64,000 nt of DNA. It comes from Chitinophaga sp. XS-30 (lineage in GTDB: Bacteria > Bacteroidota > Bacteroidia > Chitinophagales > Chitinophagaceae). A model generated the notes under the pieces. That model was not told the origin of the DNA. It made no database searches and saw nothing but the letters and a program-made list of their open reading frames with translations. The position numbers were made by a program, and so were the translations under genes. The stretch spans positions 310,001 to 374,000 of the forward strand of contig NZ_CP043006.1 of NCBI RefSeq assembly GCF_008086345.1, written 5' to 3'. This document shows, piece after piece, positions 2,561 through 46,624 of the stretch (position 1 is the stretch's first letter; the number at the start of each line of letters is the position of its first letter).

Positions 2561-3784
2561 ATGAAACGATTTGTCGCGCTAATACTATTGGTTTTCCCCA
2601 TTTATGCACAATCACAGGCGCCATCGACCGCTATTCCAGGAGAACTGGCATCACTTATAGATGTGCCTGCGCTTGCCCCCGAACATGACCCTCCGGTGGA
2701 CGGCCACGCTGCCGGCGAAACACTGCGTTTCGACAAATTGGTGCTGATTACCGGCAGTAGCGAATCGGGGCTTGAGACACAAATATATCTATATATCAAT
2801 ACTACTACCGGAGATATCGCAACCTGTACAGGCAAAGCCGGCAATGCTGATGATGGCAGTTTCAATATTGATGACCCTGCGTTCAGGCTTACCTATTATA
2901 ACCCGCGCGGACGGACCTACAACTTTTACACCCGGAAGAAAAATGGCAACATCGTACGGTATATGAGCTCACTCAATACAGAAATAGTTCCCTTTTCCAA
3001 CGGCATCCCATTTCAAAGAACAACGGTATATAAAACCGGGAACACTGCCAATCCTTTGCCGCAAAGGTTTGATGCGATGACCTATAAAGCGTCCGGCAGC
3101 AATGCCCCCACATTGATCGTATGCGGCGACCCCAAACCCGGGCGCCTGCTGCTGAAACGGTTTATCGGATATAGCGGTATCGGGTATATGAAAACAGACC
3201 AGGGCATTTACATGGTCGTAAAAATAAAATCGGCGAGAGGAGGTTTTACCGCCACAAAATGGAAAAGTGAAAACTATAAGCTGAACCTCTCGGATTTCCA
3301 ACACATTGAAGCCGAAATGTACACCGATATGCTTGCCCGAAATGAGGCGAAAACAGAGAAAATACAGCAAAAAAGCTACACCGGCAATTGTGCTGATATC
3401 GCCAACCGGATAAAAGAAATAAAACTGGAACAGCAAAGAAAAGAACGGGAAAATATAACGCAGATGGGAAGAGGAAATCCCGTAACAGATGCCTCGGTGC
3501 GGGATGCAATGATGGGGTTGTACGGCAACCCTGCAAAACAATTACAACAGGCTTCGCTGGAGATTGACCTTAAACTGTGCAAGCTGGACAGCAAACGAAT
3601 GCCGACAGAGAGCGACGCGGAAAAAAGAAACTGCCTGATGGAAGACAAGCAGAAACTGGATGCAGCGATGCTGGAGCTGCAGGCTTTAAAAGAGCGCTAT
3701 TCCAACCCGAAAGACGCAGCTTTATTGGTTACAGAACAGCTTAAAGTGGTTGGGAAAGTGAGTACTGCATTAAAATGCAATTAG
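2561..3784 (+). CDS. Secreted protein of unknown function with C-terminal coiled coil
   Basis: 407 residues beginning with a clear signal peptide (MKRFVALILLVFPIYAQSQ), so export to the periplasm or beyond is expected. The middle (about 60-240) looks like a beta-rich globular domain. Residues about 260-390 are highly charged and helical, with EIKLEQQRKERENI and later DKQKLDAAMLELQALKERY, which suggests a coiled coil. A few cysteines (in NCADIANR, LKLCKLD, RNCLMED and the C-terminus) could form disulphides. It precedes the OmpA-domain gene by 50 bases on the same strand, so the two may be co-transcribed and act together in the envelope. I do not recognise a family. Confidence 0.75.
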   Translation: MKRFVALILLVFPIYAQSQAPSTAIPGELASLIDVPALAPEHDPPVDGHAAGETLRFDKLVLITGSSESGLETQIYLYINTTTGDIATCTGKAGNADDGSFNIDDPAFRLTYYNPRGRTYNFYTRKKNGNIVRYMSSLNTEIVPFSNGIPFQRTTVYKTGNTANPLPQRFDAMTYKASGSNAPTLIVCGDPKPGRLLLKRFIGYSGIGYMKTDQGIYMVVKIKSARGGFTATKWKSENYKLNLSDFQHIEAEMYTDMLARNEAKTEKIQQKSYTGNCADIANRIKEIKLEQQRKERENITQMGRGNPVTDASVRDAMMGLYGNPAKQLQQASLEIDLKLCKLDSKRMPTESDAEKRNCLMEDKQKLDAAMLELQALKERYSNPKDAALLVTEQLKVVGKVSTALKCN

Positions 3785-13500: not shown

Positions 13501-14002
13501 AACGCCCGCTCACATTGGTAGCGGTGCCAAGGGAGGTGCCTTTAACGTTGATGCTGACACCCGGCAGCGGCTCGTTCCTGTCATCCGTTACCATCCCGCT
13601 AACCGTGATCCGGGCCTGACTGGCCGCCTCATCACTTTTCCCCGATGAAATAACGATCAGGTTATTCCCCATATCCCGGTACCGCAGTCCCGAGTGCTCC
13701 AGCAGTTTATCGAGCGCATCGGAGACCTTTGCATTCTTCACGGAGAAATCCACTTTTTTGGTCAGCAGGCTGAGGTCGTAATTATAGATGAACCTGACCT
13801 TCGCTTTTTTCTCGATGGCGATCAGAATAGTACGCAGCTCAACCTTTTCAAAGCTGGCTGTAATGGTCTGGCTGAATACTTTCGCTGCGTGTATCTGGGA
13901 AGCGGTAAGTAAAATAATCAAGATGGAAAGCTTCATACATAGAAGGAATTTAAGCAGACGTGGCGTCATCACTCCCCGGACGGGAGGTGCGTTTTTTTTC
14001 AT
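10547..14002 (-). CDS. SusC/RagA family TonB-dependent outer membrane transporter with STN domain
   Basis: 1151 residues. After a signal region (MKLSILIILLTASQIHA) comes an STN/secretin-N domain (about 50-110, ITASFEKVELRTILIAIEKK). This N-terminal signalling domain touches the FecR anti-sigma factor across the periplasm. A carboxypeptidase-regulatory-like beta domain follows (about 130-205), then the TonB box and plug (ELVVVGYGTQKRQDVTGAI; VRGFGSISAGTGPLIVVDG; LKDASSAAIYGSRGANGVILVTTKRG), then a 22-strand-type barrel ending in an aromatic (INVGF). The STN domain and the sigma/FecR genes upstream show substrate-triggered trans-envelope control. The substrate is unknown; the adjacent glycosidase suggests alpha-linked glycans. 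Confidence 0.95.
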   Translation of the reverse strand: MKKNAPPVRGVMTPRLLKFLLCMKLSILIILLTASQIHAAKVFSQTITASFEKVELRTILIAIEKKAKVRFIYNYDLSLLTKKVDFSVKNAKVSDALDKLLEHSGLRYRDMGNNLIVISSGKSDEAASQARITVSGMVTDDRNEPLPGVSINVKGTSLGTATNVSGRFSLNVPSPDDTLVFTYIGFAPQEQALAGRTTLNVTLVAASSNLNELVVVGYGTQKRQDVTGAIASVPMKEIGDMPVSNVASALQGKIAGVVVQQNSGSPGRTPAIKVRGFGSISAGTGPLIVVDGNIVSADVFGLFDPEEIEKIDVLKDASSAAIYGSRGANGVILVTTKRGRSGKARMNLNVYTGFQQVTKKLDLLSSQEYAEFAKEASNNAYLDNVPGAQISDPNSVRPSNYLRYRYARGDLFEWLDYDDPAKVAALPDHNYQDLIFRTAPISNYQFSAAGGSEKVQYAISAGYLTQDGIIKKSAMDRYTLRANVDIKATEKFTVGVNINPSFRTTQEVRSDGHWASNGIINAALNTMPMAPIYKEDGSYSSMTALAAPYNLPGITNPVANITEYNSKFDQTNLLSNAYAEYRFLPNLRYRVSGNANIYQNRRNAYTTSRMPLNQQLPPTAATGSAFSEQGISWLVNQVLSYNVSFQDVHNLEILAGTESAKLQYQSSDAAGNTFANDIVQTLNAAGQPASVSSQITENATVSYFARVDYNYKSKYLVKVSVRRDGSSIFGPDNRFGTFPAASVGWRVTEEPFMKNLPVISELKLRASYGLSGNNAFNSYYPYVGSIGTTNYSFNNNIVTGLALSSLGNPGLSWERNQQLDLGVDIGLLKNRIAVTVDYYDRITKDLLLSVNVPTLTGFGSAVKNIGRMSNKGFEFGVNSYNLTGDFTWNTSANLSLNRNKVLALGPTGDPIRSGSGVGETNITMIGQPIGSFYGYNQIGIFRDDADLHTNPHDNTTRPGDVKYEDVNKDGKLDANDRTIIGNNQPDFIYGMNNSFSYKNIDLSISVQGMQGGQILNLSRRFFDNLEGGGNNLAIALDRWRSPENPGNGKVPRANARTTGNNNAVSSRWVEDGSYLRIQNVSLGYKLPQAVIHRLKLQQVRIYASAQNLYTWTKYTNFNPEVSNYEGPLTGGVDYGSYPLARTVTFGINVGF

Positions 14003-14014
14003 AACTTTGGATTT

Positions 14015-14111
14015 ACGGTTTAAGAAGATGGAAACCCGTTGATTTTGCCGATCGGAGGTTTCCGGACCATTAGACTTTTCGGGGAATGTTTCCGCATTTC
14101 CCGATTTTTTT
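14015..14111 (+). ncRNA. Candidate antisense small RNA over the first susC leader (DonS-like)
   Basis: On the plus strand, opposite susC, a perfect -7 box TAACTTTG lies at 14002-14009 and overlaps the complement of the susC start codon. A terminator follows: CGGGGAATG (14080-14088), a six-base loop, CATTTCCCG (14095-14103), then A and seven T (14105-14111). The stem is fully paired only in plus-strand RNA (one G-U pair; C-A in the minus-strand RNA), which points to transcription opposite to susC. An inner pair GGAAACC/GGTTTCC (14030-14036, 14057-14063) would give a second hairpin. The product, about 97 nt, would be fully complementary to the susC leader. No good -33 box was seen. DonS of Bacteroides fragilis is the known precedent; the RNA itself is inferred. 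Confidence 0.55.
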
Positions 14112-14115
14112 GCTG

Positions 14116-32798: not shown

Positions 32799-33734
32799 CT
32801 ATTCCGCAATAATGGCCTGCATACCAGCCGTCATAAAGAACTTTGGCCGGCCTTCTTCCTCATATACGAGGAATGCCTCCAGCTGCGGTTCCTTTTGCAG
32901 CAAAAGTTTTGCGCCTTCCAGCCCCAGCGCGAGCAGGGCAGTGGCATAGGCATCCGCTGAAGCCGCGTCAGCGGAGAGCACCGTAGCGCTCAGCAGGGCA
33001 TCGGGGGGAGAAATGCCGGTTTGGGGATGCATGATGTGATGGAGCAGTTGCCCATCCTGACGGTAAGCATTATAATAATTGCCGGAAGTGGCTGTGGCGC
33101 GGTTGGTAAGGGTTAGGGTGCGAAGGGTTTTCCCCGGATGGAATGGGTCCTCAATGGGTATGGATCTCTTTTTCCCGCGGCAACGCAGCTCGCCGCCAAC
33201 TTCCACGAGATAGTCCGTAATGCCCTGCTTTTCCAGGAAGCCGGCGATCACATCCACCGTATATCCCTGGGCAATGGCGTCAAAATCAAGCCGCACACCG
33301 CTCTTCGTTTTATGCACCGCAACGGAATCGAAAACGATGTATTGAAAGCCAACATATTGCAATAGTGAATCCACCCGGCCCGGCCAGGGTATGCCGCTTC
33401 TTTTGCCATTGCGGTAAGCTTCGGTGAGGGGCGCCACCGTAGGGTCGAATGCGCCGCCCGTGGCCTGGTAAATCTCGTATGAACGCTGCAGAACGGGATA
33501 AAAATAACCGGACTGATACCGGAAATCATCGAACTGGTTAAAGGTCGATACTTCGGAATCAGTCCGGTAAGTGGACAATGCCTTGTCGATATCCGACAGG
33601 ATGGAATCCACGGATATTTTAAAATTACGCTGCCCGGCATCCGCATAACGGATGTGATAAGTAGTGCCCTGGGCCGTACCGTCAAAGCTGACTTCCGGCA
33701 GCAGGAAACATAAAAAGGCAGCGGCGATCCACAT
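32799..33734 (-). CDS. apbE: FAD:protein FMN transferase, ApbE family
   Basis: 311 residues. A hydrophobic N-terminus (MWIAAAFLCFLLPEVSF) fits export or a membrane anchor. The ApbE landmarks follow in order: GTAQGTTYHIRY, FDPTVAPLTEAYR, VRLDFDAIAQGYTVDVI, YLVEVGGELRCRGK, HHIMHPQTG and ADAASADAYATALLALG with the Mg-binding Asp/Thr. ApbE transfers FMN from FAD onto Thr or Ser in a Dxx[S/T]GA[T/S] motif of exported redox proteins. Its start overlaps the stop of the FAD oxidoreductase gene by one base. The likely target is the 373-residue protein encoded further upstream, with its TGAT motif. Confidence 0.93.
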   Translation of the reverse strand: MWIAAAFLCFLLPEVSFDGTAQGTTYHIRYADAGQRNFKISVDSILSDIDKALSTYRTDSEVSTFNQFDDFRYQSGYFYPVLQRSYEIYQATGGAFDPTVAPLTEAYRNGKRSGIPWPGRVDSLLQYVGFQYIVFDSVAVHKTKSGVRLDFDAIAQGYTVDVIAGFLEKQGITDYLVEVGGELRCRGKKRSIPIEDPFHPGKTLRTLTLTNRATATSGNYYNAYRQDGQLLHHIMHPQTGISPPDALLSATVLSADAASADAYATALLALGLEGAKLLLQKEPQLEAFLVYEEEGRPKFFMTAGMQAIIAE

Positions 33735-35656
33735 CAGTCTATTTTATTTGTTACCTGTTGTGAAGGCACAGTTTCGTCTTTCAGGATAGCCACCAGTTCA
33801 GACAAATGATGCTGGTACACGCCTCTCGGTGTGGTATTATGTTTCTTCGCGATGCCGGCTGCAAAGCCTACTACCTCTCCCATCATGCCGCAGGTACGCA
33901 TAACGCGGGTGCTGCCGAAGGCAACGTGCGTGGTGCTGATGTTCCGGCCGGCCATGAACAGGTTGGAGATGTTGCGGGAATAGAGGCACCGGTAGGGAAT
34001 GGTGTACGGCGCTACGCGGATGTGTTTGGTGCTGGCGAAAAATTCCTGCCCTTCAAAATATTTGCTGTTCTTTTCCTGCGGGAAATGCAGGTCTATCGTC
34101 CAGGTAGCGGTTACTGCGCCATCAGGATAGAACTTGCCTTCCTGGATATCCATCTGCGTGAGCACATGATCCCCGATAATGCGGCGCGATTCCCGCTTGC
34201 CGCCGATGTAAGCCACCCAGGCCAGCTCGCGTTTCGCATATTTCTCCGGTTTGTTCTTCTTCAGGTAAGACCAGTTGCCGTATATCGCACGAAGGTTATG
34301 ATCGCGGATCTGCTCCGCTTCCGTGATGGTATTGAAATTCCCGAAACCCGTTTCCCATTCCCAGTCTGATTGCACCTGATCGATATGATATTCATCGGAG
34401 AACTGCAAAGCCCAGGGTGTTTCGGGGAAGGAAGACACGGTATCCCGCTCCAGGGATGCCCAGAGGTTGGAGGTGCCGAGGGTGAAATCATCCGGTTTTT
34501 CGGGCGCCAGCGGCTCACCCGTTTCGGCCCTGCTTTCCCGGCCCATACGGAAGTCCGCGCCGGACAGGAAACCAATTGTGCCATCGCCGGTGCAATCGGC
34601 AAAATAGGTAGCAGTGAAACGTACATCCTGGTTCGTGGAGATGTTCCTGCCGGTCACGGCTTTGATCTTATCCTTATCCATTTCTACTTTGTAGGCATGC
34701 GTATTGAGGAACAAGGTCAGGTTCTTTTCCGCTTTCACGATATCGATCTTGCGTTTGTCGCCATACTCTTTCGCATCAGGATTGCCGTTGCCGGGATCTC
34801 CGTTATCCATTTCCCGGACGATCCTGCCCAGTTTGGGATAGTGATTCTTGTCCACATCCCCCATCAGGTGTACCCTGATCTCCGAGCTGTTGTTGCCGCC
34901 AAGCACCGGCCTGTCCTGCACCAATGCCGTTTTCAGGCCCTGGCGCGCAGCGGAAATGGCCGCACAGGTACCGGCAATGCCGCCGCCGATCACTACGAGA
35001 TCGTAATGCCCGCCGTTATCCGGTTCGGCATGTGTATGCAGCAGCTTGTTACGGAAAGCGTTCAGTTCTTTCAATGTATTTGGCGGGGTGAACTTCGATG
35101 CGTCTGTGAACAGGATGGCATCGCAGCGGCCATTGAAGCCGGTCAGGTCATTCATGGTCAGCCGCACCTTTTCGTTTTTGATATCTACTGTTCCGCCATC
35201 ATACCATTTCCATGCATCGTTGCCGCTGGCGCCGAATACCGGGCCTGCCTGCTGTCCGTCGATGGACAGGGTGAACTTTCCCGGGCCTGTAGGGAACGGC
35301 GCCCAGTCTTTCGTGCGCACCCACATCCGGTATTTGCCCTTCGCGGGAAACTGTACGGTGGTGGATGCTTCTTTTACCGGCCGGCCCATGCCATGCGCCA
35401 TCAGGTAGGAAGAACCTATTACAACAAACGACTGCTGATCAATTACCCAGCCGCCTTTGTCTTCAAAAGATTCCGCTTCCACGTACACCTGCTTTTGGGC
35501 GAACAGGCCCGTGTGCAGCAGCAACAGGGCAAAGCCGGTCACCAGGGAGCTCTTTGCGGGTAACAATATCCGGAAAATGCCGGTGATGGGAAGACAGCTG
35601 TCCTTCAGGAACGACAGGGCTTTCATGATGCTTCGGCGGTGTGTTAATATTTTCAT
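33734..35656 (-). CDS. Exported FAD-dependent oxidoreductase (FAD_oxidored type)
   Basis: About 640 residues. A long N-terminal signal region ends LLLLHTGLFAQ. Residues about 55-190 look like a beta-sandwich module (VEAESFEDKGGW; YRMWVRTKDWAPFP). The FAD-binding fold begins near residue 220 (YDLVVIGGGIAGTCAAISAA; LGGNNSSEIRVHLMGD) and ends with NLFMAGRNISTTHVAFGSTRVMRT. This family includes exported enzymes that oxidise sugars and related compounds, mostly uncharacterised. I start at MKILTHRR, where the leader repeat sits; an ATG ten codons later also works. Neighbours: the TGAT protein upstream and ApbE downstream, one base overlapped. Confidence 0.85.
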   Translation of the reverse strand: MKILTHRRSIMKALSFLKDSCLPITGIFRILLPAKSSLVTGFALLLLHTGLFAQKQVYVEAESFEDKGGWVIDQQSFVVIGSSYLMAHGMGRPVKEASTTVQFPAKGKYRMWVRTKDWAPFPTGPGKFTLSIDGQQAGPVFGASGNDAWKWYDGGTVDIKNEKVRLTMNDLTGFNGRCDAILFTDASKFTPPNTLKELNAFRNKLLHTHAEPDNGGHYDLVVIGGGIAGTCAAISAARQGLKTALVQDRPVLGGNNSSEIRVHLMGDVDKNHYPKLGRIVREMDNGDPGNGNPDAKEYGDKRKIDIVKAEKNLTLFLNTHAYKVEMDKDKIKAVTGRNISTNQDVRFTATYFADCTGDGTIGFLSGADFRMGRESRAETGEPLAPEKPDDFTLGTSNLWASLERDTVSSFPETPWALQFSDEYHIDQVQSDWEWETGFGNFNTITEAEQIRDHNLRAIYGNWSYLKKNKPEKYAKRELAWVAYIGGKRESRRIIGDHVLTQMDIQEGKFYPDGAVTATWTIDLHFPQEKNSKYFEGQEFFASTKHIRVAPYTIPYRCLYSRNISNLFMAGRNISTTHVAFGSTRVMRTCGMMGEVVGFAAGIAKKHNTTPRGVYQHHLSELVAILKDETVPSQQVTNKID

Positions 35657-35755
35657 CTGTACATATTTTATGTTTTTACGGGGCAAATGAATTGTTATTT
35701 CATCTGTTCATATATTTTTTACGGGTCAGATGGAATGCTATTTCATCTTTTTTCG
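35647..35755. repeat. Tandem leader repeats before the FAD oxidoreductase gene
   Basis: Three copies of a motif opening with ATTTCATCT or TTTTCATCT stand about 47 bases apart (35649, 35695, 35740). The first two continue CATCTGTACATAT and CATCTGTTCATAT. Each of these two carries, on the coding strand, ATGTACAGATGAAA or ATGAACAGATGAAA, the actual start context of the gene and its copy. Confidence 0.6.
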
Positions 35756-35762
35756 AGTTTTA

Positions 35763-36884
35763 TTATTCCGATGCCGATGACGACGCAGCCTTTTCATAAC
35801 CTGACAGTTTTTTCCGCACTGTTTTATGTGTCGGTTTCAGGGACGATAACGCCTCATAGATCGCCTCTCCTGCGTCCGGATCTGTCAGCTGTTCCGCCAA
35901 CTCCAGTTGCGCTTTGTCCGAAAGCTTTTGCTGCGCGGCCAGCAGCGCCAGTTTTATTTTAAATTGTTCATGATTCCCGGCTCTAACGGCCTTTGCTATA
36001 CGAACAGCCAGTACTTCGCCAAGCGGGATGTCTTTCAATTTTTTCAGGATGGCCATCTGGAAAGGGTACACGGCCGAGTTATACACCTCCCACAGCCACA
36101 ATTGTCTTGATGGCGTATCAAAAAAATCCCTGTTCACCGTTTGCAGCGCATGCCGCGCGGTGAAAATATTCTTCCCGGCAATGATCTTTTCAATGTCTCC
36201 TTCATAAGACGCCTGCACATGCCCCTCTGCAGATATCACTTTCTCCATCGCGAAGTACTGGTAATGGTAGTTGTCACTGTTCAGGAAGCGGTGCAGCAAC
36301 CCGGGTGACAGGTACGTTTCCGTGATCTTCCTGATCTCTTCTTTCACCGGGCCATGCGCCAGATGCCAGAGGGTGTAGCAGGTGAATACCGCGCCTTCTA
36401 TCACATCATTTTTGATGGTCTTGAGCGTAGCGCCTGTTTTGATATTGGCCGAATCGGAGATATCCTCCGTACCTTTCACCACCAGGTCTTCCATCTTCAG
36501 CTCGGCGAGTATGGAGGTTTCCCGGGAGAGGATGTCCTGCAGCTTCGCGTAATCCTTCTCCTGAAATTCCCGGTGATCTGTTTTCGTGAGCACTTCATTA
36601 TCCGGCATATCAAAGCGGGTGTAATTGCCCCTCAGGTCCCAGTAAAAATTGATGTACACCGGTTTGCATTCGCCGGTATTGCATACAGGCGTATAGATGT
36701 TCCGGAAGAAGTACAACGGCTGCCCTGCCTTGTCCAGTACAAGGTTCAGGGTATAGCTGATGCTGTCGTTCTCCCTGACTTCATACCTCCGGATGCTGTC
36801 ATCTGCGCGCACCGGCATTGCCGATGCGCACAGGATGACCATTAAAAAAATCAGTTTACTTATATTCCAGTCTCGCTGTAGCAT
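35763..36884 (-). CDS. Exported protein with a TGAT motif, candidate FMN carrier
   Basis: 373 residues with a signal peptide (LIFLMVILCASAMPVRA). Residues 68-73 contain a cysteine pair region (VCNTGECKPV). Residues 147-153 read NIKTGAT, close to the ApbE target motif Dxx[S/T]GA[T/S] but with Asn for Asp, followed by EGAVFTCYTLWHLAHG. I believe related proteins in Bacteroidota keep the [S/T]GAT and TLWH parts. The C-terminal half (about 180-373) is helical. It overlaps the lipoprotein gene upstream by 29 bases, so they are translated together. With ApbE and a FAD oxidoreductase in the same operon, it is the best candidate to carry covalent FMN on Thr153. Confidence 0.7.
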   Translation of the reverse strand: MLQRDWNISKLIFLMVILCASAMPVRADDSIRRYEVRENDSISYTLNLVLDKAGQPLYFFRNIYTPVCNTGECKPVYINFYWDLRGNYTRFDMPDNEVLTKTDHREFQEKDYAKLQDILSRETSILAELKMEDLVVKGTEDISDSANIKTGATLKTIKNDVIEGAVFTCYTLWHLAHGPVKEEIRKITETYLSPGLLHRFLNSDNYHYQYFAMEKVISAEGHVQASYEGDIEKIIAGKNIFTARHALQTVNRDFFDTPSRQLWLWEVYNSAVYPFQMAILKKLKDIPLGEVLAVRIAKAVRAGNHEQFKIKLALLAAQQKLSDKAQLELAEQLTDPDAGEAIYEALSSLKPTHKTVRKKLSGYEKAASSSASE

Positions 36885-39312
36885 TACAATCCTTGTTGCT
36901 CACAAATCTGATCCACCGGGCCTGTACATCATCCGGGAAGCGGAAGGCGAACTGCTCGCCGGGCGCCACCGTCACTTCCTTGTATTTCATCCATACGCCG
37001 GTGCCAACAGGGTCCATTTCGATGGTGAAGGTTACGGGCTGTTGGGCTTCATGAGAGAGCTGCAGGCTGCGGCTGTCATAAAAACCGAACAGGTAGGGAT
37101 CGGATGGCGCATTCGCTGTCACGGGTGATTGTTTCCAGGGACCGCCCTGCCCTGCAGGTTTCCCCAGCTTCCACAGATCATCGATCACACCGGCCCATAC
37201 CGCGGCTTTGCCATCGGCCGAACGGATGATATGCTCACTTTCGCTTCCGGCATCGATACCTGTCAGTATCAGCAATCCGCGATAAGAAGCGTAGTCGTTG
37301 ATCCGGAAATGATGCGATGCTACCGGCCGGATCTTTGCATAGCCGTCCGCATTCTCGGCGGGGAGTTCGTAAAATGTACCGTGACAGTTGAACAGGTCCC
37401 GCTCTGTAGCTACCTCACGGCAGATGCGGAGGGCACTATGTTGCGTCAGCCCGGTAAATGCCTCATCTCCCAGCGGCAGGCGCCAGCGGCGGCCTTTATC
37501 GTCCACGACCAATACGGAAGCGGCGTCTATGGTCACGGCCTGTTCCGGGATGGCGAACTTTTTACGGATGAACGCGCTGGCCGCGGTATCTTCTTTCTTT
37601 TCCAGCTGCATTTGCGCATTCAACTCATAATATCCGGCTTCGGTGGCTGTTGCGCCGCTGTATTCCAGCGCCAGCATTCCCAGCGTACGCCGGTCTTTCC
37701 CCAGGCCATAGATCAGTCCGCCGCTTGTTTTATCCGCACCAGTTTCGCTCAGCCCTTTAAAGATACCATCCGTTGTGTTATTCCGCCGGTCTTTATCCGC
37801 ATAAGAAAAATGCAGCGTGGCGTTGGTGTTTACATTCGCTTTTGCCCGTATCCATTCCCCCGGCATATCCGCTGGGAATGCCACCGGTACGCTTCCTCCG
37901 GCCGGAACCGAAACAGTTTGCGCAGTGGCCCAGTTGCCGTCCCCGGCCTGGTCGGTTTCAAAGGTGAACTGAACGGACTGGCGGCCGTTGTTTTTGATCC
38001 AGGCGGAGCGCAGGGGCCATCCGGCAAAAAGGAAAGGCTCGGAGACCTCATTGGCCTGTATGCTTTCATTCAGCCACACAGCGCCTTCGGCCGTATTCGG
38101 CCCCAGTTGGTCCGGCTGCTCCAATGAAGTGAACCAGAGGTTGGAATTGGACTGTCCCGGCCCTTCTATATTGCCTTTGGCTTTTCGCTTGTTTAAGAAC
38201 TCCTTTTGTGCGGAATCATCGCATCCGAAAACCAGCTGATCGTTCCAGCGGGCAAAATCCCCGATCACTTTGAGGTAAGCGGAGCGCGGGCGGATACCGG
38301 CGGTTTGCCTGCTGCTGAACCCGCCGGGGAAACGCCAGAACATGCCGTGCATGGTCATCAGGTAATCCGGCTGCTGTGAAGTGCCGATATCGCGGATGCG
38401 CGGCCACTCTGTATTCCAGCCATGCGCGCCATCGTAGCTGTGGCTGGCTTTCGGCAGACGGTAAAAATGCCATTGCCCCTGATCGCGCACGGCCAGCAAA
38501 ACGGATTTATGGTCCCAGCCCGTAGCCCAAATGGGATCGGTATCCGGATTTTTATTGCCGTAAATGCCACCCGGACCGGTCACTTCCACAAACTGATTGC
38601 GGCGGACGGTCTTCCAGTTTTTCCCGTCCCATTCTGACAGGGAGCCGGATTCGATATCGAAATCGGTCAGGGACTTCGGGCCCGGCTCACCGTTGTTGGA
38701 ATAGACCATCACGCCCTGTCCGGAATACAATCCTTTGCCATGTGCGCCGGGCAGGAGATTGGGTACGGAATCCCTCGGGTTGCCATCAGGATACAGCATC
38801 ACCGGTTGCAGGGTGTTCACATCCACTTCATAGAACCCTTCTTCCATGGTGCCGTAATATATTTTGCCTGCGGGGTCTGTGAGATGGCGGGCGTTGCCGG
38901 TATGGCGACCTTGCATGGCGGTGTAGGGGATCACCCTTACTTTGCCGCTGCTGTCTATTGCATACGGCCCGATGAAAAGCTGGTGGCTTTCCGGATGGAT
39001 CATCCTGTTGGCCGGCGTTCCGCCGATGCTTTCGCTGCGCACGGTCTGTTGCAGGTCCGGTGATATCTCATACAGTTTGTCTGACGAGCCTTTCGGCAAA
39101 TGGGGACCATAGGTGATCACCCAGAGTTTGCCGGCCCAGGGCACTACCGCCCCGGTGCCGCATTCTCCTTCGTTGTTGTACATCGCCAGATGCGGGTACA
39201 CGCCGCTGAAGGAACGTTGCTTCGTTGTGTCTGCTGTCTGCCTGCAGGCGGCTGCATGCAGCAATGCTCCCGCCGCCAGCACCATCATGCTGCTTCTTAT
39301 CGTCATCATCAA
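36856..39312 (-). CDS. Large surface lipoprotein with a duplicated beta module
   Basis: 818 residues. A lipoprotein signal ends LLHAAACRQ, with the lipidated Cys at residue 23. Residues about 35-360 have beta-propeller-like blades (AGKLWVITYGPHLPKG; DKLYEISPDLQQTV; AGKIYYGTMEEGFYEVDV). A module at about 425-504 (FLFAGWPLRSAWI; FTFETDQAGDGNW; GEWIRAKANVNTNATL) recurs at about 738-818 (YLFGFYDSRSLQL; FTIEMDPVGTGVW; ARWIRFVSNKDCNATA). It overlaps the susD stop by four bases and the next gene by 29, so it belongs to the operon. It probably binds the locus substrate at the cell surface; an enzymatic role is possible. The family is not recognised. Confidence 0.75.
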   Translation of the reverse strand: MMMTIRSSMMVLAAGALLHAAACRQTADTTKQRSFSGVYPHLAMYNNEGECGTGAVVPWAGKLWVITYGPHLPKGSSDKLYEISPDLQQTVRSESIGGTPANRMIHPESHQLFIGPYAIDSSGKVRVIPYTAMQGRHTGNARHLTDPAGKIYYGTMEEGFYEVDVNTLQPVMLYPDGNPRDSVPNLLPGAHGKGLYSGQGVMVYSNNGEPGPKSLTDFDIESGSLSEWDGKNWKTVRRNQFVEVTGPGGIYGNKNPDTDPIWATGWDHKSVLLAVRDQGQWHFYRLPKASHSYDGAHGWNTEWPRIRDIGTSQQPDYLMTMHGMFWRFPGGFSSRQTAGIRPRSAYLKVIGDFARWNDQLVFGCDDSAQKEFLNKRKAKGNIEGPGQSNSNLWFTSLEQPDQLGPNTAEGAVWLNESIQANEVSEPFLFAGWPLRSAWIKNNGRQSVQFTFETDQAGDGNWATAQTVSVPAGGSVPVAFPADMPGEWIRAKANVNTNATLHFSYADKDRRNNTTDGIFKGLSETGADKTSGGLIYGLGKDRRTLGMLALEYSGATATEAGYYELNAQMQLEKKEDTAASAFIRKKFAIPEQAVTIDAASVLVVDDKGRRWRLPLGDEAFTGLTQHSALRICREVATERDLFNCHGTFYELPAENADGYAKIRPVASHHFRINDYASYRGLLILTGIDAGSESEHIIRSADGKAAVWAGVIDDLWKLGKPAGQGGPWKQSPVTANAPSDPYLFGFYDSRSLQLSHEAQQPVTFTIEMDPVGTGVWMKYKEVTVAPGEQFAFRFPDDVQARWIRFVSNKDCNATARLEYK

Positions 39313-40997
39313 TAGTTATCGTTTTGATCAAGACCGCTGGTCAACACCTCGGCGGAAGGAATAGGCCAGAGATACTGGCGGGTGACATCGAACTTGCGCA
39401 CGGCAACTGTTTTGATCAGCCCGGCGGTGGCCATGGCCGTGAAATCGGCTACACCGTCCTCATCTATCTCCGGTGTCTGCGGGAAGAACCACAGGCCCGG
39501 CTGCACCACTTTTGTACGGAGATCGGCCGGGTCCAGCATGCCGTAATTGATCTTGTTCAGCACTTTACCCGCCAGTTTCCAGCGGATGATATCCATATAA
39601 CGGATGCCCTCTTTCGCAAATTCCATTCTTCTTTCCACGCGCACGATCTTCCTCAGTTCGGCCTGATCAGTGGTGGTCACCGCCGGATAATCCGCAGTGG
39701 CGGTATATTCCACGCCATAAGCCCTTGCCCTTACCATATTGATGGCATCCAGCACCGTCTGATCGATCTGGTTCAGCTCCACTTTGGCTTCTGCATACAT
39801 GAGCAGCACATCCGCATAACGGATAATGATCTTGTCCGGCTCGGCCGTCCAGGAATTCAGCAGCCAGTCGCGGTCCACGCCTTTCTTCCAGATCAGCCCG
39901 TTGTAGGATGCGAAGATGGCGATGGCGCGGGTGTCTTTATTCTCCACATGTTTCATATCCGCTTCCTTCCATACGGTAAGTGTATCCGGATGCGGTTGGT
40001 AGGTATATCCGAGGAATGAGCTGCTGAAAGGCACGATGGTAGCCGCACAGCGGGGATCGCGATTTTCAAAGGGATTATGCGGGTCGAATAAAGGCGATTC
40101 ATCCACCGGCATTCCGTCTGTGCACAGAAAAGCGCAGAACAGGTCCCAGGAAGGATTTTTAGCGCCCCATCCCCCTGCATTGCGGGTCACGTAATTCTGA
40201 AGATCGCCCAGTGTTACCTTCAGCGCAACGGAGCGCGGAAGGCCGAACACCGTTTCCACGGAGTTCTTGGTTTTGGACAGGAAGAGGTTGCTGAAATCAG
40301 GATGGAGTCTGTACACCTCCTGGTCCATGCAGGCTTTGGCAGCGGCGGCAGCCGTAGCCCAGTCTTCCATCTGCAGCGCGATGCGGGCTTTCAGGGCCAG
40401 TGCAGCGCCGGAGGTGGCACGTTTCAGTTCATTGGCCGTATAGGTCGCAGGCAGATTATTGGCTGCGGAATCAAAGTCCGCATAGATCTTCGCCAGCACC
40501 ATCGCTTTGTCCATCTGCTTCAATTGCAGGGCCTGATCTATATCCAGCGCGGAATCCGTGTACACAATATTACCGTAATGGGAAAGCAGCCGCGAATATT
40601 GTGCGGCGCGCACAAAACGCGCTTCGGAGGAATAACGGCTGATCTGGGCGGGGGACAGCACATTCGCCGCACGGCCCACACTGTGTATAACGGTATTGGC
40701 ACGGGCGATGGCCTTGTAGGCATTCACCCACCATGTGCGTACAAAATCGGTTTCCCCATTGATGGTAGCGCCGGTGATGGGCGTTGTGGCATCGCGGTAA
40801 AGGAAATCATCCGTCCAGTCATCATTATCGGTTGGCCAGAACGCATCTTTATACAAACCGTTGAGGGACATTTCAATTTCCTCTGCGGTAGAGTTCCAGG
40901 TTTCGCTGGAGCCGTCGGACAGCGGGTTCAGGTCCAGTTTTGCACAGGCGGCCACCAGGAAGAGGCCGGCGCAGGTGATATATAATTTGAATTTCAT
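39309..40997 (-). CDS. SusD/RagB family surface lipoprotein (second locus)
   Basis: 562 residues. The lipobox LFLVAACAK gives a lipidated Cys at residue 18. The N-terminal SusD domain is seen in EEIEMSLNGLYKDAFW and AIARANTVIHSV, with ARFVRAAQYSRLLSHYGNIVY. The C-terminal signature is RYADVLLMYAEAKVELNQID, MVRARAYG and RVERRMEFAKEGIRYMDIIRW, and the end carries LWPIPSAEVL. It would cap the SusC transporter encoded 12 bases upstream. Its stop overlaps the lipoprotein start by four bases (ATGA). Confidence 0.95.
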   Translation of the reverse strand: MKFKLYITCAGLFLVAACAKLDLNPLSDGSSETWNSTAEEIEMSLNGLYKDAFWPTDNDDWTDDFLYRDATTPITGATINGETDFVRTWWVNAYKAIARANTVIHSVGRAANVLSPAQISRYSSEARFVRAAQYSRLLSHYGNIVYTDSALDIDQALQLKQMDKAMVLAKIYADFDSAANNLPATYTANELKRATSGAALALKARIALQMEDWATAAAAAKACMDQEVYRLHPDFSNLFLSKTKNSVETVFGLPRSVALKVTLGDLQNYVTRNAGGWGAKNPSWDLFCAFLCTDGMPVDESPLFDPHNPFENRDPRCAATIVPFSSSFLGYTYQPHPDTLTVWKEADMKHVENKDTRAIAIFASYNGLIWKKGVDRDWLLNSWTAEPDKIIIRYADVLLMYAEAKVELNQIDQTVLDAINMVRARAYGVEYTATADYPAVTTTDQAELRKIVRVERRMEFAKEGIRYMDIIRWKLAGKVLNKINYGMLDPADLRTKVVQPGLWFFPQTPEIDEDGVADFTAMATAGLIKTVAVRKFDVTRQYLWPIPSAEVLTSGLDQNDNY

Positions 40998-41009: not shown

Positions 41010-44000
41010 TTAAAACTTGACGGATACGCCGAAAACAAATGACACGGTGATGGGATAACCGAGGTAGTTCATCTCGGGGTCCCAGCCTTTCGGGAATTTA
41101 TGGATCGAGAATACGTCGGTAACAGTACCATATACCCGTACGTCCTGCACTTTAGCCTTCTGCACCAGGCTTCTCGGAACGGTATAGCTCAGGTTGATGT
41201 TCTTGAGCCGGAAGTAACCGCCGTTGATCAGCCAGTAGTCGGACAGTGCGTAGTTATTGCCTGCGGAGGTATTGGTATAACGCGGGTATCTTACGTTGAG
41301 GTTCTGTTCCGGTGTATTGTATTTGCTCCAGCTGTTGCCATCGAGTATGGCCGGGAAGTTGCCGTAGTTCTCCAGCAGCGGCCGCACGATATCGGTGGTG
41401 AGACGGGCGTTCTGTTTGCCAACGCCCTGCAGCACCACGCCCAGGTTCCAGTTCTTGTACCCGGCCTGCAAAGTGGCGCCGTACATGTAACGCGGAAGCG
41501 AACCGCCTAACAGCACACGGTCGTATTCCGGAGATATCTTTCCGTCCGGCACGCCATTCGGACCGCTGATGTCTTTGTATTTGACATCACCGGGTTTTAC
41601 ATTGGCATTCAGCACAGGCGATTTATCCACATCATCCTGTGTCTGAAAAAGGCCGTCAGACTGGTATCCGTACCATTCATTGAACTCGCTGCCGTATATC
41701 TTGATCTGATCGCCGATGAACTCTGTTCCGCCGAGGTCACCCATTTTTGAAATGAAGTCGGACATGTTGGCGGAAACGCCGTAGGAGAAATCACCCACTT
41801 TGTCGTTCCAACCGATCTGGAATTCCCAGCCGGTGGTGTACATCTTGCCGGTGTTCTGGGTGGGATTATCGAAACCGATGAAGTCGGGAATCTCCAGGTC
41901 CAGCAAAATATCCCGCGTGGTCTTCTTGTAATAGTCCCCGGTGAAACGCAGCCTGTTGCCGAGGAAATTCATATCCAGCCCGATGTCGTAGGACGCTGTC
42001 GTTTCCCAGGAGATGTCGCGGATAACATATTGCCATTGTGCGGCGGATTGAGCGGAAACGGCGGCATTGCCCCTGTAGAACAATGAATTGTTCTCGAAGC
42101 GGAGGAGCGCCTGATAAGGATAATTTCCCCCGATCCGCTCATTGCCAAGTGTTCCCCATGAGGCGCGTACTTTCAGGAACGACAACCAGTTGGAAGTGCC
42201 GCTCATGAACGGTTCCTGGGAAATGATCCATCCCGCGGAAACGGAAGGGAAGGAGCCCCAGCGGTAACCGGGTGCAAAACGGGAAGAAGCATCGTAACGG
42301 ATATTCGCCTGCAGCAGGTATTTTTCCTTGTAGTTGTACATCACGCGCCCGAACCAGGAACGGTAGGCATTTTCCGTAGCGTTGCCGCTATTGTCCCTGA
42401 ACTCCAGCGGGCCCAGGTTCAGATAAGGGTAATTGGTCAGCACATACTGCCCGCGGTATGCCATCAGGTCCTCATTAAACGCATAATAATATTCATATCC
42501 GCCTAACAGGTTGAGGTTATGGTCGCCCAGCTGTTTGGTGTAGTTCGCCAGGAACTGCATGGTGTAACGATGGTTATCGTTGCGGTTCTCTGTGAGCTTG
42601 GTCTCCGTGCCTCCTTCAATGTAGCCGGATACGGAATTAGGATTGCTCCAGGAGGTGTAAGGTATCTGTTTATTGAATGTTTTCAGCTTGTCGAAGCTGG
42701 CGAATGGCGATATCACGCCGGAGAATTTCAATCCTTCGATGGGTGTGAAATCCAGGCCTATCTTGCCGCCGATCTGGTTGTACCAGTCGTGATCGAAACC
42801 ACCGTGCTTCACCAGCGCATAGATATTGGCGCCATCCTTTCCCGCACCGATCCTGCCGTCTGACCACATGGCGGCATACAGGGGCGGCACGATACCCATT
42901 TTGTACATGGGATTGGTTACCGGCTGCTTGATGATGGTGCGGCGGAAGTTCAGGTCCACACTCGCGGAAAGATATTTATTGATGGTGATATCATTGTTGA
43001 CCCGCGCGGTCAGGCGTTCGTAGGTGCGGCCGTCATACAGGGCATCGGATTTGTCATATCCCAGCGATACCCGGGAGCGGATGCTTTTGCCGCCACCGGA
43101 AATGCTCATGATATGGCTTTGCCGCGGTGAGGAATTGTTCAGGATCATGCCCCGCCAGTCCGTATTCGGATACTCATCCGGGTTCTGGGCGTTGAGGTTG
43201 TAATAATCATCAATGGTCGCCTTAGGATAGGTTGGATGTTCATTGGCGTTATTGCCGTTGTCGTTCCATCTCAGTTCATTGGTCAATTCCATGAACCGGG
43301 TCACATCCACGTAATCCGGCAGGATGGTGGGTTTTTCAATACCGTATTCATAGGTATAATCCAGGCTCAGCTGGCCGTTCCTGGCGCGTTTGGTGGTGAT
43401 GAGGATAACTCCCGCGGCAGCCCTGGAGCCGTAGATGGATGCGGAAGCCGCATCCTTCAGCACGGAAATATTGTCCACATCATTCGGGTTGATGGAATTG
43501 ATATCGTCGATCGGTACGCCATCCAGGATAATGAGCGGATCAGCGCCTCCTTCCGTGAGGGTGGTGATACCGCGTACGCGTATGGTGGCCGTGGCGCCGG
43601 GTGCGTTATTGTTGCGGGTCACGGTAACGCCGGGCATGGAGCCCTGCAGGGCGGTGGAGATCTGGGTGGTCTTCCTCGCCGCGATGGCTTCACCTTCCAC
43701 AGCGGATACGGAGCCGGTAAGGTCGCTTTTCTTGATAGCGCCATAACCTACTACTACCACACTTTCCAGTGTGGTGTTATCCGCTTTGCCCATTTTGATA
43801 TCCAGTTTCTTCCTTCCGTTCAGCTCCAGCTCCGTTGTTGCGAAACCGATGTAGGATAATACCAGCACCGCTTTATCATCCACCCCGGAAAGTTTGAACT
43901 CTCCATTCTCGTCTGTCGTGGTACCGGTTCTTGTGCCTTTCACCATAACGGTAACACCGGGCAGCGGTTCCCCGGCATCATCCGTTACCTTTCCGGTGAT

Positions 44001-44462
44001 GGTCACCGGCGGCAGGATGAAGGGGGAAAGCACTTTCAGCGGCGGCGTTTTCTTGATGGTGATCGTTTTATCAATGATGGTATAACTCAGCCCCTGCCCC
44101 TGAAGAGAAGCGGAGAGAAAGGTTTCCAGGGGAGCATTGAGCAATGATACCGTCACCGGTTGCGCGCTTTTGATCAGGTTGTTATCATAAAAGACCACAT
44201 AACCTGTCTGTTTGTGAATGGCGGCGAAAATAGTTTTCAGCTTGATATTCTTACCTGAAAAACTTACGGTTTGCGAAACACCGGTAGCGCTTACGTTCAG
44301 GAATAAAACCGTCAGGAACAGGCATGTTAACTTCATAGCTAACAGAATTTTGGTAAGGTTTGGCAGACGGTGCATAAGATCTGCACCGCTGACTCCCGGA
44401 GATGCAGAAATTGGTGTAGCAACAGCCGTCCGCTTGCGGAAAGCGATAAATTTAAATTGCAT
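41010..44462 (-). CDS. SusC/RagA family TonB-dependent transporter with STN domain (second locus)
   Basis: 1150 residues. A signal region (MKLTCLFLTVLFLNVSATGVSQ) is preceded by a long N-terminal extension; an inner start at MHRLPNLTK is possible. An STN domain follows (about 70-125, KTIFAAIHKQTGYVVFYDNNLI), then a carboxypeptidase-like beta domain (GKVTDDAGEPLPGVTVMVKGT), the TonB box/plug (ESVVVVGYGAIKKSDLTGS; DPLIILDGVPIDDINSINPND; LKDAASASIYGSRAAAGVILIT) and the barrel ending VSVKF. The STN domain fits control by the FecR and sigma factor encoded upstream. The substrate is unknown, but downstream redox genes suggest a compound that is oxidised or reduced outside the cytoplasm. Confidence 0.95.
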   Translation of the reverse strand: MQFKFIAFRKRTAVATPISASPGVSGADLMHRLPNLTKILLAMKLTCLFLTVLFLNVSATGVSQTVSFSGKNIKLKTIFAAIHKQTGYVVFYDNNLIKSAQPVTVSLLNAPLETFLSASLQGQGLSYTIIDKTITIKKTPPLKVLSPFILPPVTITGKVTDDAGEPLPGVTVMVKGTRTGTTTDENGEFKLSGVDDKAVLVLSYIGFATTELELNGRKKLDIKMGKADNTTLESVVVVGYGAIKKSDLTGSVSAVEGEAIAARKTTQISTALQGSMPGVTVTRNNNAPGATATIRVRGITTLTEGGADPLIILDGVPIDDINSINPNDVDNISVLKDAASASIYGSRAAAGVILITTKRARNGQLSLDYTYEYGIEKPTILPDYVDVTRFMELTNELRWNDNGNNANEHPTYPKATIDDYYNLNAQNPDEYPNTDWRGMILNNSSPRQSHIMSISGGGKSIRSRVSLGYDKSDALYDGRTYERLTARVNNDITINKYLSASVDLNFRRTIIKQPVTNPMYKMGIVPPLYAAMWSDGRIGAGKDGANIYALVKHGGFDHDWYNQIGGKIGLDFTPIEGLKFSGVISPFASFDKLKTFNKQIPYTSWSNPNSVSGYIEGGTETKLTENRNDNHRYTMQFLANYTKQLGDHNLNLLGGYEYYYAFNEDLMAYRGQYVLTNYPYLNLGPLEFRDNSGNATENAYRSWFGRVMYNYKEKYLLQANIRYDASSRFAPGYRWGSFPSVSAGWIISQEPFMSGTSNWLSFLKVRASWGTLGNERIGGNYPYQALLRFENNSLFYRGNAAVSAQSAAQWQYVIRDISWETTASYDIGLDMNFLGNRLRFTGDYYKKTTRDILLDLEIPDFIGFDNPTQNTGKMYTTGWEFQIGWNDKVGDFSYGVSANMSDFISKMGDLGGTEFIGDQIKIYGSEFNEWYGYQSDGLFQTQDDVDKSPVLNANVKPGDVKYKDISGPNGVPDGKISPEYDRVLLGGSLPRYMYGATLQAGYKNWNLGVVLQGVGKQNARLTTDIVRPLLENYGNFPAILDGNSWSKYNTPEQNLNVRYPRYTNTSAGNNYALSDYWLINGGYFRLKNINLSYTVPRSLVQKAKVQDVRVYGTVTDVFSIHKFPKGWDPEMNYLGYPITVSFVFGVSVKF

Positions 44463-44474
44463 ACATTTGCATTG

Positions 44475-44569
44475 TTTGGTTGAATGAATAGGCAGTCTCA
44501 GCCGATTGTTCTGTTCAACGCAGACTAAACGCCCGCCAGAGATGTTCCAACCATTTCTGGCATTTTTTT
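44475..44569 (+). ncRNA. Candidate antisense small RNA over the second susC leader (DonS-like)
   Basis: A perfect -7 box TACATTTG at 44462-44469 starts on the last base of the complement of the susC start codon, exactly as at the first locus. A terminator follows: GCCAGAGATG (44535-44544), a 7-base loop, CATTTCTGGC (44552-44561), A, then seven T (44563-44569). The one non-Watson-Crick position is G-U in plus-strand RNA and C-A in minus-strand RNA, so the hairpin belongs to an RNA antisense to susC. GGTTGAA...TTCAAC could form a 5-prime hairpin. The distance from box to T run (107 bases) nearly equals the first locus (109). A clear -33 box was not found. Confidence 0.55.
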
Positions 44570-44633
44570 AGCCCACGTTATCTGGTGATCAGTTTTTGTT
44601 TGTCATTTCATCATCGTGGATATTTTTTTGTTA

Positions 44634-45803
44634 TTACTTCAATACAGTAATATTTTTCCCTTCTACGCGGAATTTTACATTATTTTCTTCAAGGATGGTC
44701 AATACTTTGGACAGGGGCAGTGACCGCTGGATACCGCCGCCGAAGCTTCTCCGTGGCACAAAGCCTTCTTCATAGCCTACGGTCACATCGTACCAGTTCT
44801 CCAGCTGCCGCATCACGGCGGGCATATCTGCATCCACGAACAGGAAGTACCCGTTCTTCCAGGCCATTACTTCATCAAGATCTACGTCATTCACCACCTG
44901 CATACCGCCGTTATTGCGTTGCAGGCGAGCCTGTTGACCTGGCTGCAACACATCTCCGCGGCCGCCGCCGGACACTTTTACCGCACCTTCCAGCAGCGTG
45001 GCTTTCACTACCGGCTCCGCCGCATAGGCATTGATATTGAAATGGGTGCCGAGCACTTCCACTTTCATTTTCCCGGCGTCTACCACAAAGGGTTTACCGG
45101 CGTCTTTCGCTACTTCAAAATATGCCTCGCCTGAGATCTGCACGCTTCGTACATCTCCGGTAAATGCGGTGGGATAGGTAATGGAAGAAGCGGCGTTGAG
45201 CCAGACGTTGGTGCCGTCCGGCAGGGTGAGGCGGTATTCTCCGCCCCTTGGCGTACGCATGGTATTATACATGACCATATCTTCTGCAGCGCCTTCAATT
45301 TCGTAGGACAGCTGCCCGTTGGCCTGCTTTATCACCCGGACTTTCCCCTGCTGCGTCACCACGCCATTGGCGGCGCTATCCAGCGCTATCACCGTACCAT
45401 CGCCGAGCGTCAGCAATGCTTTATTGCCGCCTGCGGGCACTTCGTTCCTGTATCGTTCGATCCGGGGCGCCTCCGCAAGCTTCTGCGGGGATTTGCGCGG
45501 CCATAGCAACGCGGCAGCAGCCACCAGCAGCAATATACCTGCGGCAGCCAGCCACCGGCGGACCGGGAGGGAACGCACACGCGGCTTCTCTTCTTCAAAA
45601 AGGGAAGCCTGGATCCGTGCGGAAACTTCGCCGGGCATCCTGTCCTCCGGCCGGAACCGTTCCCAGGTTTGCGCAACGACCTCCTTCAGGTCCTGATCGT
45701 CCTGTACTTCGCTGATCCATTCTGCCAGTTCGTGTTTTTCTGCAGCAGTACAGGTGCCATTAAAATACCTTTCCATGAGGTATTGCATACGTTCTCTCAA
45801 CAT
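44634..45803 (-). CDS. FecR family anti-sigma factor (second locus)
   Basis: 389 residues. The cytoplasmic N-terminus (about 1-80) has YLMERYFNGTCTAAEKHELAEW. The membrane helix is at about 84-102 (WLAAAGILLLVAAAALLW). The periplasmic FecR domain (about 180-270) has YNTMRTPRGGEYRLTLPDG, VWLNAASSITYPTAF and VQISGEAYFEVAKD. The C-terminal DUF4974 domain (about 310-389) has ADMPAVMRQLENWYDVTVGY. It relays the SusC signal to the ECF sigma factor. It lies 230 bases downstream of the sigma gene and 171 bases before susC. Confidence 0.93.
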   Translation of the reverse strand: MLRERMQYLMERYFNGTCTAAEKHELAEWISEVQDDQDLKEVVAQTWERFRPEDRMPGEVSARIQASLFEEEKPRVRSLPVRRWLAAAGILLLVAAAALLWPRKSPQKLAEAPRIERYRNEVPAGGNKALLTLGDGTVIALDSAANGVVTQQGKVRVIKQANGQLSYEIEGAAEDMVMYNTMRTPRGGEYRLTLPDGTNVWLNAASSITYPTAFTGDVRSVQISGEAYFEVAKDAGKPFVVDAGKMKVEVLGTHFNINAYAAEPVVKATLLEGAVKVSGGGRGDVLQPGQQARLQRNNGGMQVVNDVDLDEVMAWKNGYFLFVDADMPAVMRQLENWYDVTVGYEEGFVPRRSFGGGIQRSLPLSKVLTILEENNVKFRVEGKNITVLK

Positions 45804-46033: not shown

Positions 46034-46624
46034 TCAGGGCTGGAATGTCAGCAGGATCATTAACAAAGTAAATGCTTCCGGGGAGGCGCGCAATTGCTGC
46101 CGGATGAGGCGCAACGCTTCTATCAGATGATTATTGACGGTGGAAGGGGAGATATTCAGGTAACGGGCGATCTCGTCGTGTTTCAGGCCCCTTTCCCGGC
46201 TGAGGGTATATACTTCTTTCTGTTTGGGCGTGAGTTTGTTCAGTGCCTGGTGCAGGCTTTGGGTAACTTCCTGCAGGCTGAGCCGCGCTTCTGCGTCCAT
46301 TCCGGTCTGCGGCTGGGTTTTACCCAGTTCATTCAGAATAAGGGTTTCCTTTGCCATCCGTTTCAGCGAATTGATCACCTGGTGCTGCGCCATCCGGTAA
46401 ACATATCCGCCAAACTGTTCTATCTGCGAGAGGTTGGACCGGTCTTTCCACAGCTTCAGGAAAATATCCTGGATGATATCCTCCGTCATCTCCGGTGAAC
46501 CGGTTGCGCGCAACAGGAAACCGTACAACTTGTGTTGATATATCCGGAAAAGGCCGGCAAATGCGGCTGAATCGCCTTCTGCAGCAAGCCTTAAAAGATT
46601 TTTTTCATTGTTCGCGGACTCCAT
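46034..46624 (-). CDS. ECF RNA polymerase sigma factor (second locus)
   Basis: 196 residues. Region 2: DSAAFAGLFRIYQHKLYGF and TEDIIQDIFLKLWKDRSNL (about 15-75). Region 4: LTPKQKEVYTLSRERGLKHDEIARYLNISPSTVNNHLIEALRLI (quoted in part; about 132-175). It is the FecI-like partner of the FecR protein downstream and should activate the second SusC operon when the substrate docks. No palindrome like the one at the first sigma gene is seen upstream. Confidence 0.93.
   Translation of the reverse strand: MESANNEKNLLRLAAEGDSAAFAGLFRIYQHKLYGFLLRATGSPEMTEDIIQDIFLKLWKDRSNLSQIEQFGGYVYRMAQHQVINSLKRMAKETLILNELGKTQPQTGMDAEARLSLQEVTQSLHQALNKLTPKQKEVYTLSRERGLKHDEIARYLNISPSTVNNHLIEALRLIRQQLRASPEAFTLLMILLTFQP

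Follow-up and report, generated by a model that had tools for sequence, protein, structure and literature searches.

The window, the whole 64,000-nucleotide stretch of the Chitinophaga sp. XS-30 genome that was analysed, carries on its minus strand a susC gene (41010-44462) whose product contains STN, CarboxypepD_reg-like and Plug domains and has an N-terminal extension ahead of the signal peptide. On the same strand, the domain search identified susD (SusD_RagB, 39309-40997), an anti-sigma factor gene, fecR (FecR and FecR_C domains, 44634-45803), and a gene for an ECF-type sigma factor (46034-46624), giving the order ECF sigma, FecR, SusC, SusD, a susC/susD linkage of PUL type. A scan of 10 proteins at this locus revealed no glycan enzyme. 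The genes after susD (32799-39312) encode an FAD-dependent oxidoreductase, an ApbE flavin transferase and two large proteins that match no Pfam family (36856-39312 and 35763-36884), a content that is unusual for a glycan locus.

On the opposite (plus) strand, a candidate antisense -7 promoter box, TACATTTG, occupies 44462-44469, its first T being the complement of the A in the susC ATG. Transcription is expected to start 4-7 nt after such a box, and the predicted antisense RNA of about 95 nt would cover 44474-44569, with its 5′ end placed from the box and its 3′ end from a T-run. Three plus-strand helices were delineated. The arms of closing helix 1 lie at 44473-44479 (UGUUUGG) and 44525-44531, as folded from the alignment of orthologues; inner hairpin 2 spans 44493-44508 (arms 44493-44497 and 44504-44508; 81 of 89 cells paired in the orthologues); and helix 3, the terminator stem-loop GCCAGAGATG/CATTTCTGGC of 10 pairs at 44535-44561, was obtained from both the fold and the orthologues. 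A seven-T run follows at 44563-44569, ending 107 nt after 44462. Because the minus strand has no T-run after the stem, this terminator suits plus-strand transcription only, and its G-U pair at 44541/44555 on the plus strand would be an A-C mismatch on the other. A simple terminator scan of 43500-45500 returned 2 sites against 2.3 expected from shuffles and was by itself insufficient to reveal the element; no sigma-70 promoter was found in the scan of the same interval. By eye, no -33 element was seen at the expected spacing before the box of the window locus. Across 33 loci of this genome with 0-1 box mismatches the -33 signal was weak (TTTG in 2 and TTG in 8, at a spacing of 19-20 from the box), and a strong -33 box at the antisense loci was rejected, as none was found in that comparison. 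A conserved peptide inside the RNA was also rejected, since an ORF of at least 10 codons ending within the RNA occurred in 2 of 18 orthologues, in differing places.

The original prediction had regarded this as the second of two antisense RNA candidates in the window with the same geometry. At the first, the box TAACTTTG lies at 14002-14009 on the plus strand, at the same offset to the ATG of its susC (10547-14002), and the terminator T-run lies at 14105-14111, ending 109 nt from the ATG. The box therefore does start on the identical base relative to the susC ATG at both loci (44462 and 14002), and the geometry agrees to within 2 nt at the far end (107 versus 109 nt) rather than exactly. The 107-nt distance of the seven-T run and the plus-strand-only G-U pair, both claimed for the second locus, were found as described. 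That two of two loci carry the arrangement is true of fecR-linked susC genes in the window, which holds 2 of the 90 FecR domains of the genome.

The genome comprises 6.18 Mb in one contig, and 93 stretches around FecR/SusC matches were analysed. By a set rule, 82 of the 90 FecR domains gave a downstream open frame with an ATG, and 8 were dropped. The exact TAnnTTTG motif stood opposite the first ATG in 25 of these 82 frames, compared with 78 of 69,601 ATG triplets in tiles; moreover, 25 of the 39 matches within ±150 nt of the ATG (300 offsets) were located at that single offset. When the first ATGs of 1,021 ORFs of 200 aa or longer were compared, 14 had an exact box, 12 of them near fecR. An antisense terminator (fold energy ≤ -8 kcal/mol, stem end 70-135 nt from the ATG) was present in 40 of 64 fecR-susC gaps of 60-320 nt versus 1 of 269 other same-strand gaps, an exact box in 25 versus 1, and both together in 22 versus 0. 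The terminator-to-ATG distance in the 40 gaps was narrowly distributed (mean 102 nt, sd 9, range 84-125), and in 32 of the 40 the start codon carried a box with at most one mismatch; over all 82 loci, box and terminator were associated (Fisher p 2e-6). Sense-strand terminators behaved in the opposite manner, with 0 of 64 fecR-susC gaps against 47 of 269 control gaps. Neither box nor terminator was found in the 18 fecR-susC gaps outside 60-320 nt, and control starts showed no preference for CAAAnnT (1 exact box in 269). The arrangement thus occurs at fecR-susC starts far beyond chance. This is the outcome of the genome-wide scan proposed with the original prediction, run here on fecR-susC loci: box and terminator were strongly enriched over control starts and gaps, and not merely as frequent as chance would have them. 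The general rule that had been suggested describes a majority (40 of 64 gaps with a terminator) but is not universal, as 24 of the 64 suitable gaps had no antisense terminator by the criteria used.

As a separate observation, in SusC genes with an antisense terminator the methionine of the signal peptide is usually preceded by an N-terminal extension of some 20-25 codons; by a simple motif rule it was present in 31 of 40 with and in 8 of 42 without the terminator. The extension contains the upstream half of the antisense promoter.

The window locus was then aligned with 17 loci of the same genus whose FecR proteins are 54-80% identical to that of the window. A box of the form TACATTTG or TACTTTTG was present in 18 of 18 loci, and TGCATAC[AT]TTTGC followed by TGTTTGGTTGA was constant apart from 1-2 letters in between. 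Three RNAalifold helices were used: the closing helix, in which the 5′ end pairs with the bases preceding the terminator, the inner hairpin, and the terminator itself. A fourth, short helix that spans the box at columns 37-50 lies upstream of the RNA and was set aside. Together the three helices had 98.0% of 395 cells paired against 95.0 ± 0.6% in column shuffles and 28.8-48.5% for slid structures, with 100% in the closing helix, 100% in the terminator and 91% in the inner hairpin. Double changes affected 12 cells, compared with 3.4 in shuffles. Other covariation measures were less decisive: 44 of 500 shuffles had at least as many pairs with a double change (4), 269 of 500 reached the observed 18 pair types, and in all 2 of 5 measures were not clearly above shuffles. 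The distinction between strands was considerably sharper. Closing helix 1 had 126 of 126 cells paired when read as antisense and 85 of 126 when read as sense, and terminator helix 3 had 180 of 180 paired as antisense, with double changes in 2 of its 10 pairs. Over the three helices, 77 cells depended on G-U to pair on the antisense strand only and 0 on the sense strand only, where cells, being counted per sequence and not per event, are not independent. This 77-to-0 asymmetry in the aligned sequences is the strongest evidence for selection on a plus-strand RNA, and the comparison as a whole demonstrates a conserved predicted fold and strand-specific selection.

Folding of the paralogues pointed to the same strand. 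For 41 loci of this genome with an antisense terminator and a box mismatch of at most 3, the predicted whole RNA folded more stably than its complement at every one of the 41; the terminator by itself did so at 31 and the 5′ part at 39. The 5′ part carries more weight because the set was chosen by the antisense terminator and the 5′ part played no role in that choice; its mean z against dinucleotide shuffles was -2.77 antisense and -0.64 sense, and it was lower antisense in 38 of 41. The 5′ end closed onto the stretch before the terminator in 33 of the 41 folds, whereas 15.4 were expected from shuffles.

A covariance model made from the 18 orthologous loci only (R1) was searched over 1.86 Mb. 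It gave 34 matches at E ≤ 0.01, two of which were one place in overlapping tiles, leaving 33 distinct places including the window locus; all 33 were antisense at fecR-susC starts, and in 31 the box coincided exactly with an ATG among the first four in frame, while in the remaining two it was 5 and 13 nt off. At E ≤ 1 there were 46 matches, 4 of which lay off fecR-susC starts (L085, L023 at 855, a plus-strand match in L043, and L086, the last near the FecR at 5266283, one of the dropped loci). A second model, R2, was built from the 34 matches of R1 and searched over the whole genome, with 150 of 1,790 candidates scored. All 37 matches at E ≤ 0.1 among those scored lay on the antisense strand, no more than 1.2 kb downstream from a FecR domain, a result that shows specificity of place and not independent discovery, as R2 was trained on this genome. 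Both models match the region of the predicted RNA at 44458-44570, and the whole element of the first locus, 13998-14113, was matched with E 0.0029 by R1 and 3.6e-6 by R2. Among SusC genes, of which 56 of 209 candidates were scored, R2 matched 13 of the 30 preceded by a fecR and none of the 26 that lack one. The antisense element is therefore tied to fecR-linked susC genes and not to susC genes at large, which narrows the rule originally suggested for SusC loci. The earlier view that the shared arrangement was selected rather than copied also needs care, since the members share 5′ sequence and fold and, judged by these, look like one diverged family in this genome. The interpretation of the second locus as an antisense RNA is supported, and its plus-strand assignment is backed by the G-U choices and covariation of the orthologues, the fold energies of the 41 paralogues and the covariance-model matches.

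The search was extended to relatives, mostly with one FecR locus per genome, taking the best of the first four ATGs and suitable gaps only; eight short loci, L131, L146, L156, L157 and the own-genome L111, L147 and L158 were left out of the count. Antisense terminators were found in 19 of 27 loci of the genus, 14 of 24 of other genera of the family, 1 of 7 of other families of the order and 8 of 16 of other orders of the class; the corresponding numbers of exact boxes were 5 of 27, 5 of 24, 0 of 7 and 3 of 16. R2 was also run on 197 genomes of the class, the own genome included, and at least 15 had a match at E ≤ 0.01 while 182 had none under strict filters, a count that is a lower bound because the filters were stricter and at most 19 candidates were scored per genome. 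In 24 of 24 matches outside the own genome the box lay on an ATG, which is partly built in, as R2 models the CAT at the start; the long frames are not built in, and 22 of these ATGs opened a frame of more than 150 codons (one other was at a contig end and one was interrupted). A long ORF lay upstream of 23 of the 24.

In a scan of named genomes, at least 590 FecR stretches were confirmed and the best 80 of these were analysed. R2 gave 45 matches at E ≤ 0.01 in 44 of the best 80, all on the strand opposite fecR; at E ≤ 1, 57 of 58 matches in these 80 were on that strand. Among the 63 of the best 80 with a suitable gap, an exact box was found at one of the first four ATGs in 36, 34 of the 55 box matches within ±120 nt fell at the first ATG, and a terminator 60-135 nt away was antisense in 45 and sense in 2. 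When 36 loci of the best 80 were picked by the box alone, the region was more stable antisense in 35, with mean z of -3.6 antisense and -2.4 sense.

A third model, R3, was made from 81 matches at named, class and orthologous loci. In its alignment, which was fitted to the structure, 22 of 22 pairs had double changes and 92% of cells were paired, compared with 63% in shuffles. Within the window genus, 40 of 40 sampled genomes had predicted members, 4-42 each and 725 in total. The N-terminus of a SusC from an uncultured Chitinophaga (L302) resembles that of a SusC of the window genome (the one at FecR 3564968), and this likeness, together with the many large genomes rich in FecR in the genus, pointed to Chitinophaga or a near genus as the probable host. 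Ten named genomes were searched as well, four of which had supplied training sequences to R3 (L318, L340, L341 and L339); L318, one such source, is one of the two named Bacteroides genomes with matches. Matches were obtained in Bacteroides propionicigenes (2), Bacteroides sp. GM023 (5), Phocaeicola massiliensis (2), Parabacteroides sp. Marseille-P3160 (17), Flavobacterium johnsoniae CI04 (4), an uncultured Maribacter (7), Pedobacter steynii (22) and Sphingobacterium sp. GVS05A (10), and 0 in each of two Prevotellaceae-type genomes, Hallella multisaccharivorax and Prevotella sp. DNF00663. Inspection of 30 of the 69 named-genome matches showed the box on an ATG in 27 and an ATG 4 nt away in 3, with a long frame and a long upstream ORF in 30 of 30; 10 of these 30 upstream ORFs were scanned and all 10 were FecR. 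In a further group, drawn as the genus of genome G433, 28 of 41 genomes had a match, and since its genomes range from 1.7 to 7 Mb, probably wider than Bacteroides, this group supports no claim about that genus. By these sequence signs, named genomes of Bacteroides, Parabacteroides, Flavobacterium, Pedobacter and others carry the arrangement too, and it is spread widely across Bacteroidota. At three Pedobacter and Sphingobacterium loci (L363, L374 and L380) the start codon was located 4 nt from its usual place and reads MYK, with TACATTTG kept. In Flavivirga algicola (locus L305), two R2 matches lie 0.9 kb apart (2945-3043 and 3851-3949), and these are possibly two tandem antisense RNAs.

No Rfam 15 family reached its gathering score in the window or in 20 of the best 80 named loci; at E ≤ 1 there were three weak matches far below gathering scores, and identity with a known Rfam family was rejected. 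In Bacteroides fragilis, DonS is described as repressing its PUL, and further PUL antisense RNAs are described in Bacteroides (PMC7366714, PMC10994844, PMC11697453); the mechanism of repression by DonS is given as unknown in PMC11697453. The cis-antisense RNAs reported for Bacteroides PULs are 78-128 nt long, at 15 PULs in B. fragilis and with 32 RNAs in B. thetaiotaomicron (PMC7366714, PMC10994844, PMC11697453, PMC9723704). As in those descriptions, the element studied here would be a short RNA opposite the susC homologue of a PUL, divergent at its 5′ end, with a predicted length of about 95 nt from box to T-run that is within the reported range and with many loci per genome. What differs is the host, which belongs outside Bacteroidales and has some 40 predicted copies; comparison of loci here also brought out a fold of two stems and a promoter placed precisely on the start codon. 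By position and published description, the element thus resembles the DonS kind and would be expected to act in the same way. For Flavobacterium psychrophilum, antisense transcription in a member of the phylum outside Bacteroidales is described in PMC9723704, but the antisense section of that paper names no susC-linked flavobacterial family and presents its antisense list as a starting point for such studies. Within the open-licence literature searched, we found no report of the family outside Bacteroidales and did not find the shared fold and start-codon-anchored promoter in print.

We consider it likely that the window locus contains a gene for a cis-encoded antisense RNA, among about 40 such genes in the genome, and that this RNA most likely represses susC-susD while the ECF sigma factor is off. 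Antisense transcription, the exact RNA ends and the whole repression mechanism are what we infer from the sequence, as follows. A TAnnTTTG promoter of the Bacteroidota housekeeping-sigma type, the -7 element described for the phylum in PMC7366714, would sit on the susC start codon. From it, transcription would head away from susC into the fecR-susC gap and end about 100 nt on at the intrinsic terminator, yielding an RNA of about 95 nt with a 5′ stem closed by its own 5′ end and a terminator stem. This RNA would be complementary to the leader of the susC mRNA over the interval that begins roughly 13 nt and ends roughly 107 nt ahead of the ATG, including the A-rich stretch just before the start codon with the conserved ACCAAAC. 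Pairing with stray susC mRNA would block the translation start or expose the message to RNase. Once the ECF sigma factor is released, strong sense transcription would drive polymerases across the start codon and shut the antisense promoter, making a sharper switch. Such repression agrees with that of its PUL by DonS and with the anti-correlation of some, not all, sense/antisense pairs in B. thetaiotaomicron, for which both correlation and anti-correlation are described (PMC10994844).

The same features were weighed against other explanations. The hairpins could act solely in the susC mRNA, as an attenuator or stability element, with CAAAnnTATG as translation context and without any antisense RNA; the leader does bear the complementary hairpins, the start regions of this genome are A-rich, and the 36 box-picked loci among the best 80 of at least 590 named ones fold better than shuffles sense-wise too (mean z -2.4). 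We nevertheless hold this to be very improbable, because the T-run follows the stem on the antisense strand only, the antisense fold is the more stable one in all 41 paralogues and in 35 of the 36 box-picked loci, and the G-U choices stand 77 to 0 for antisense; on this strand-specific evidence the sense-leader-only reading was rejected, and plain translation context was rejected by the control starts, which lack a CAAAnnT preference (1 exact box in 269). Conservation of the box may still partly serve the mRNA, as it lies in the translation-start region.

Where an antisense RNA is accepted, what matters could be the act of antisense transcription, through promoter occlusion or polymerase collision, and the RNA a by-product. 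Since a box with 0-1 mismatch lies on the start codon in 32 of the 40 terminator-bearing gaps, sense and antisense polymerases must interfere, but interference alone needs no 5′ fold kept through covariation, and we regard this explanation as unlikely. It is also conceivable, though we give it very little credence, that the RNAs form a trans-acting family whose shared 5′ segment, GUUUGGUU, pairs with the ACCAAAC before many susC starts, allowing a single RNA to hold down several receptors. In its favour, TGTTTGGTTGA in the 5′ part is identical in 18 of 18 orthologues and similar segments occur in many paralogues; against it, 33 of 41 predicted folds engage the 5′ end in the closing helix, and the remainder of the RNA is locus-specific.

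The cis-acting antisense RNA thus remains the preferred reading. A broader proposal, which we offer tentatively and think rather doubtful in its full form, is that this is an ancient Bacteroidota RNA gene family seated on the start codons of fecR-controlled susC genes, in which the start codon would itself be the core of the opposing promoter, so that sense and antisense transcription would be exclusive and a two-state switch would result, with the RNA clearing stray message in the off state. The comparison yields a testable anatomy, consisting of a start-codon promoter, a fold closed by the 5′ end of the RNA, a terminator about 100 nt off and the link to fecR, together with a covariance model able to pick up candidates in many parts of the phylum. 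Should it be transcribed, the 4-42 copies predicted for each of the 40 sampled genomes of the window genus would make this regulatory RNA gene a very common one, and it would add a layer of nutrient-receptor control that has no Rfam 15 family.

Two minor observations were made in the orthologue alignment. Locus L230 retains both box and terminator, and its susC extension is one T shorter than that of L232 in a T run; the first in-frame ATG of its susC consequently lies downstream. In addition, several of the loci L224-L231 share, by eye, words resembling ACCACGT and ATTCCACTG in the interval from the fecR stop codon to the hairpin, and these words upstream of the hairpin are a possible candidate for the ECF sigma promoter of susC.
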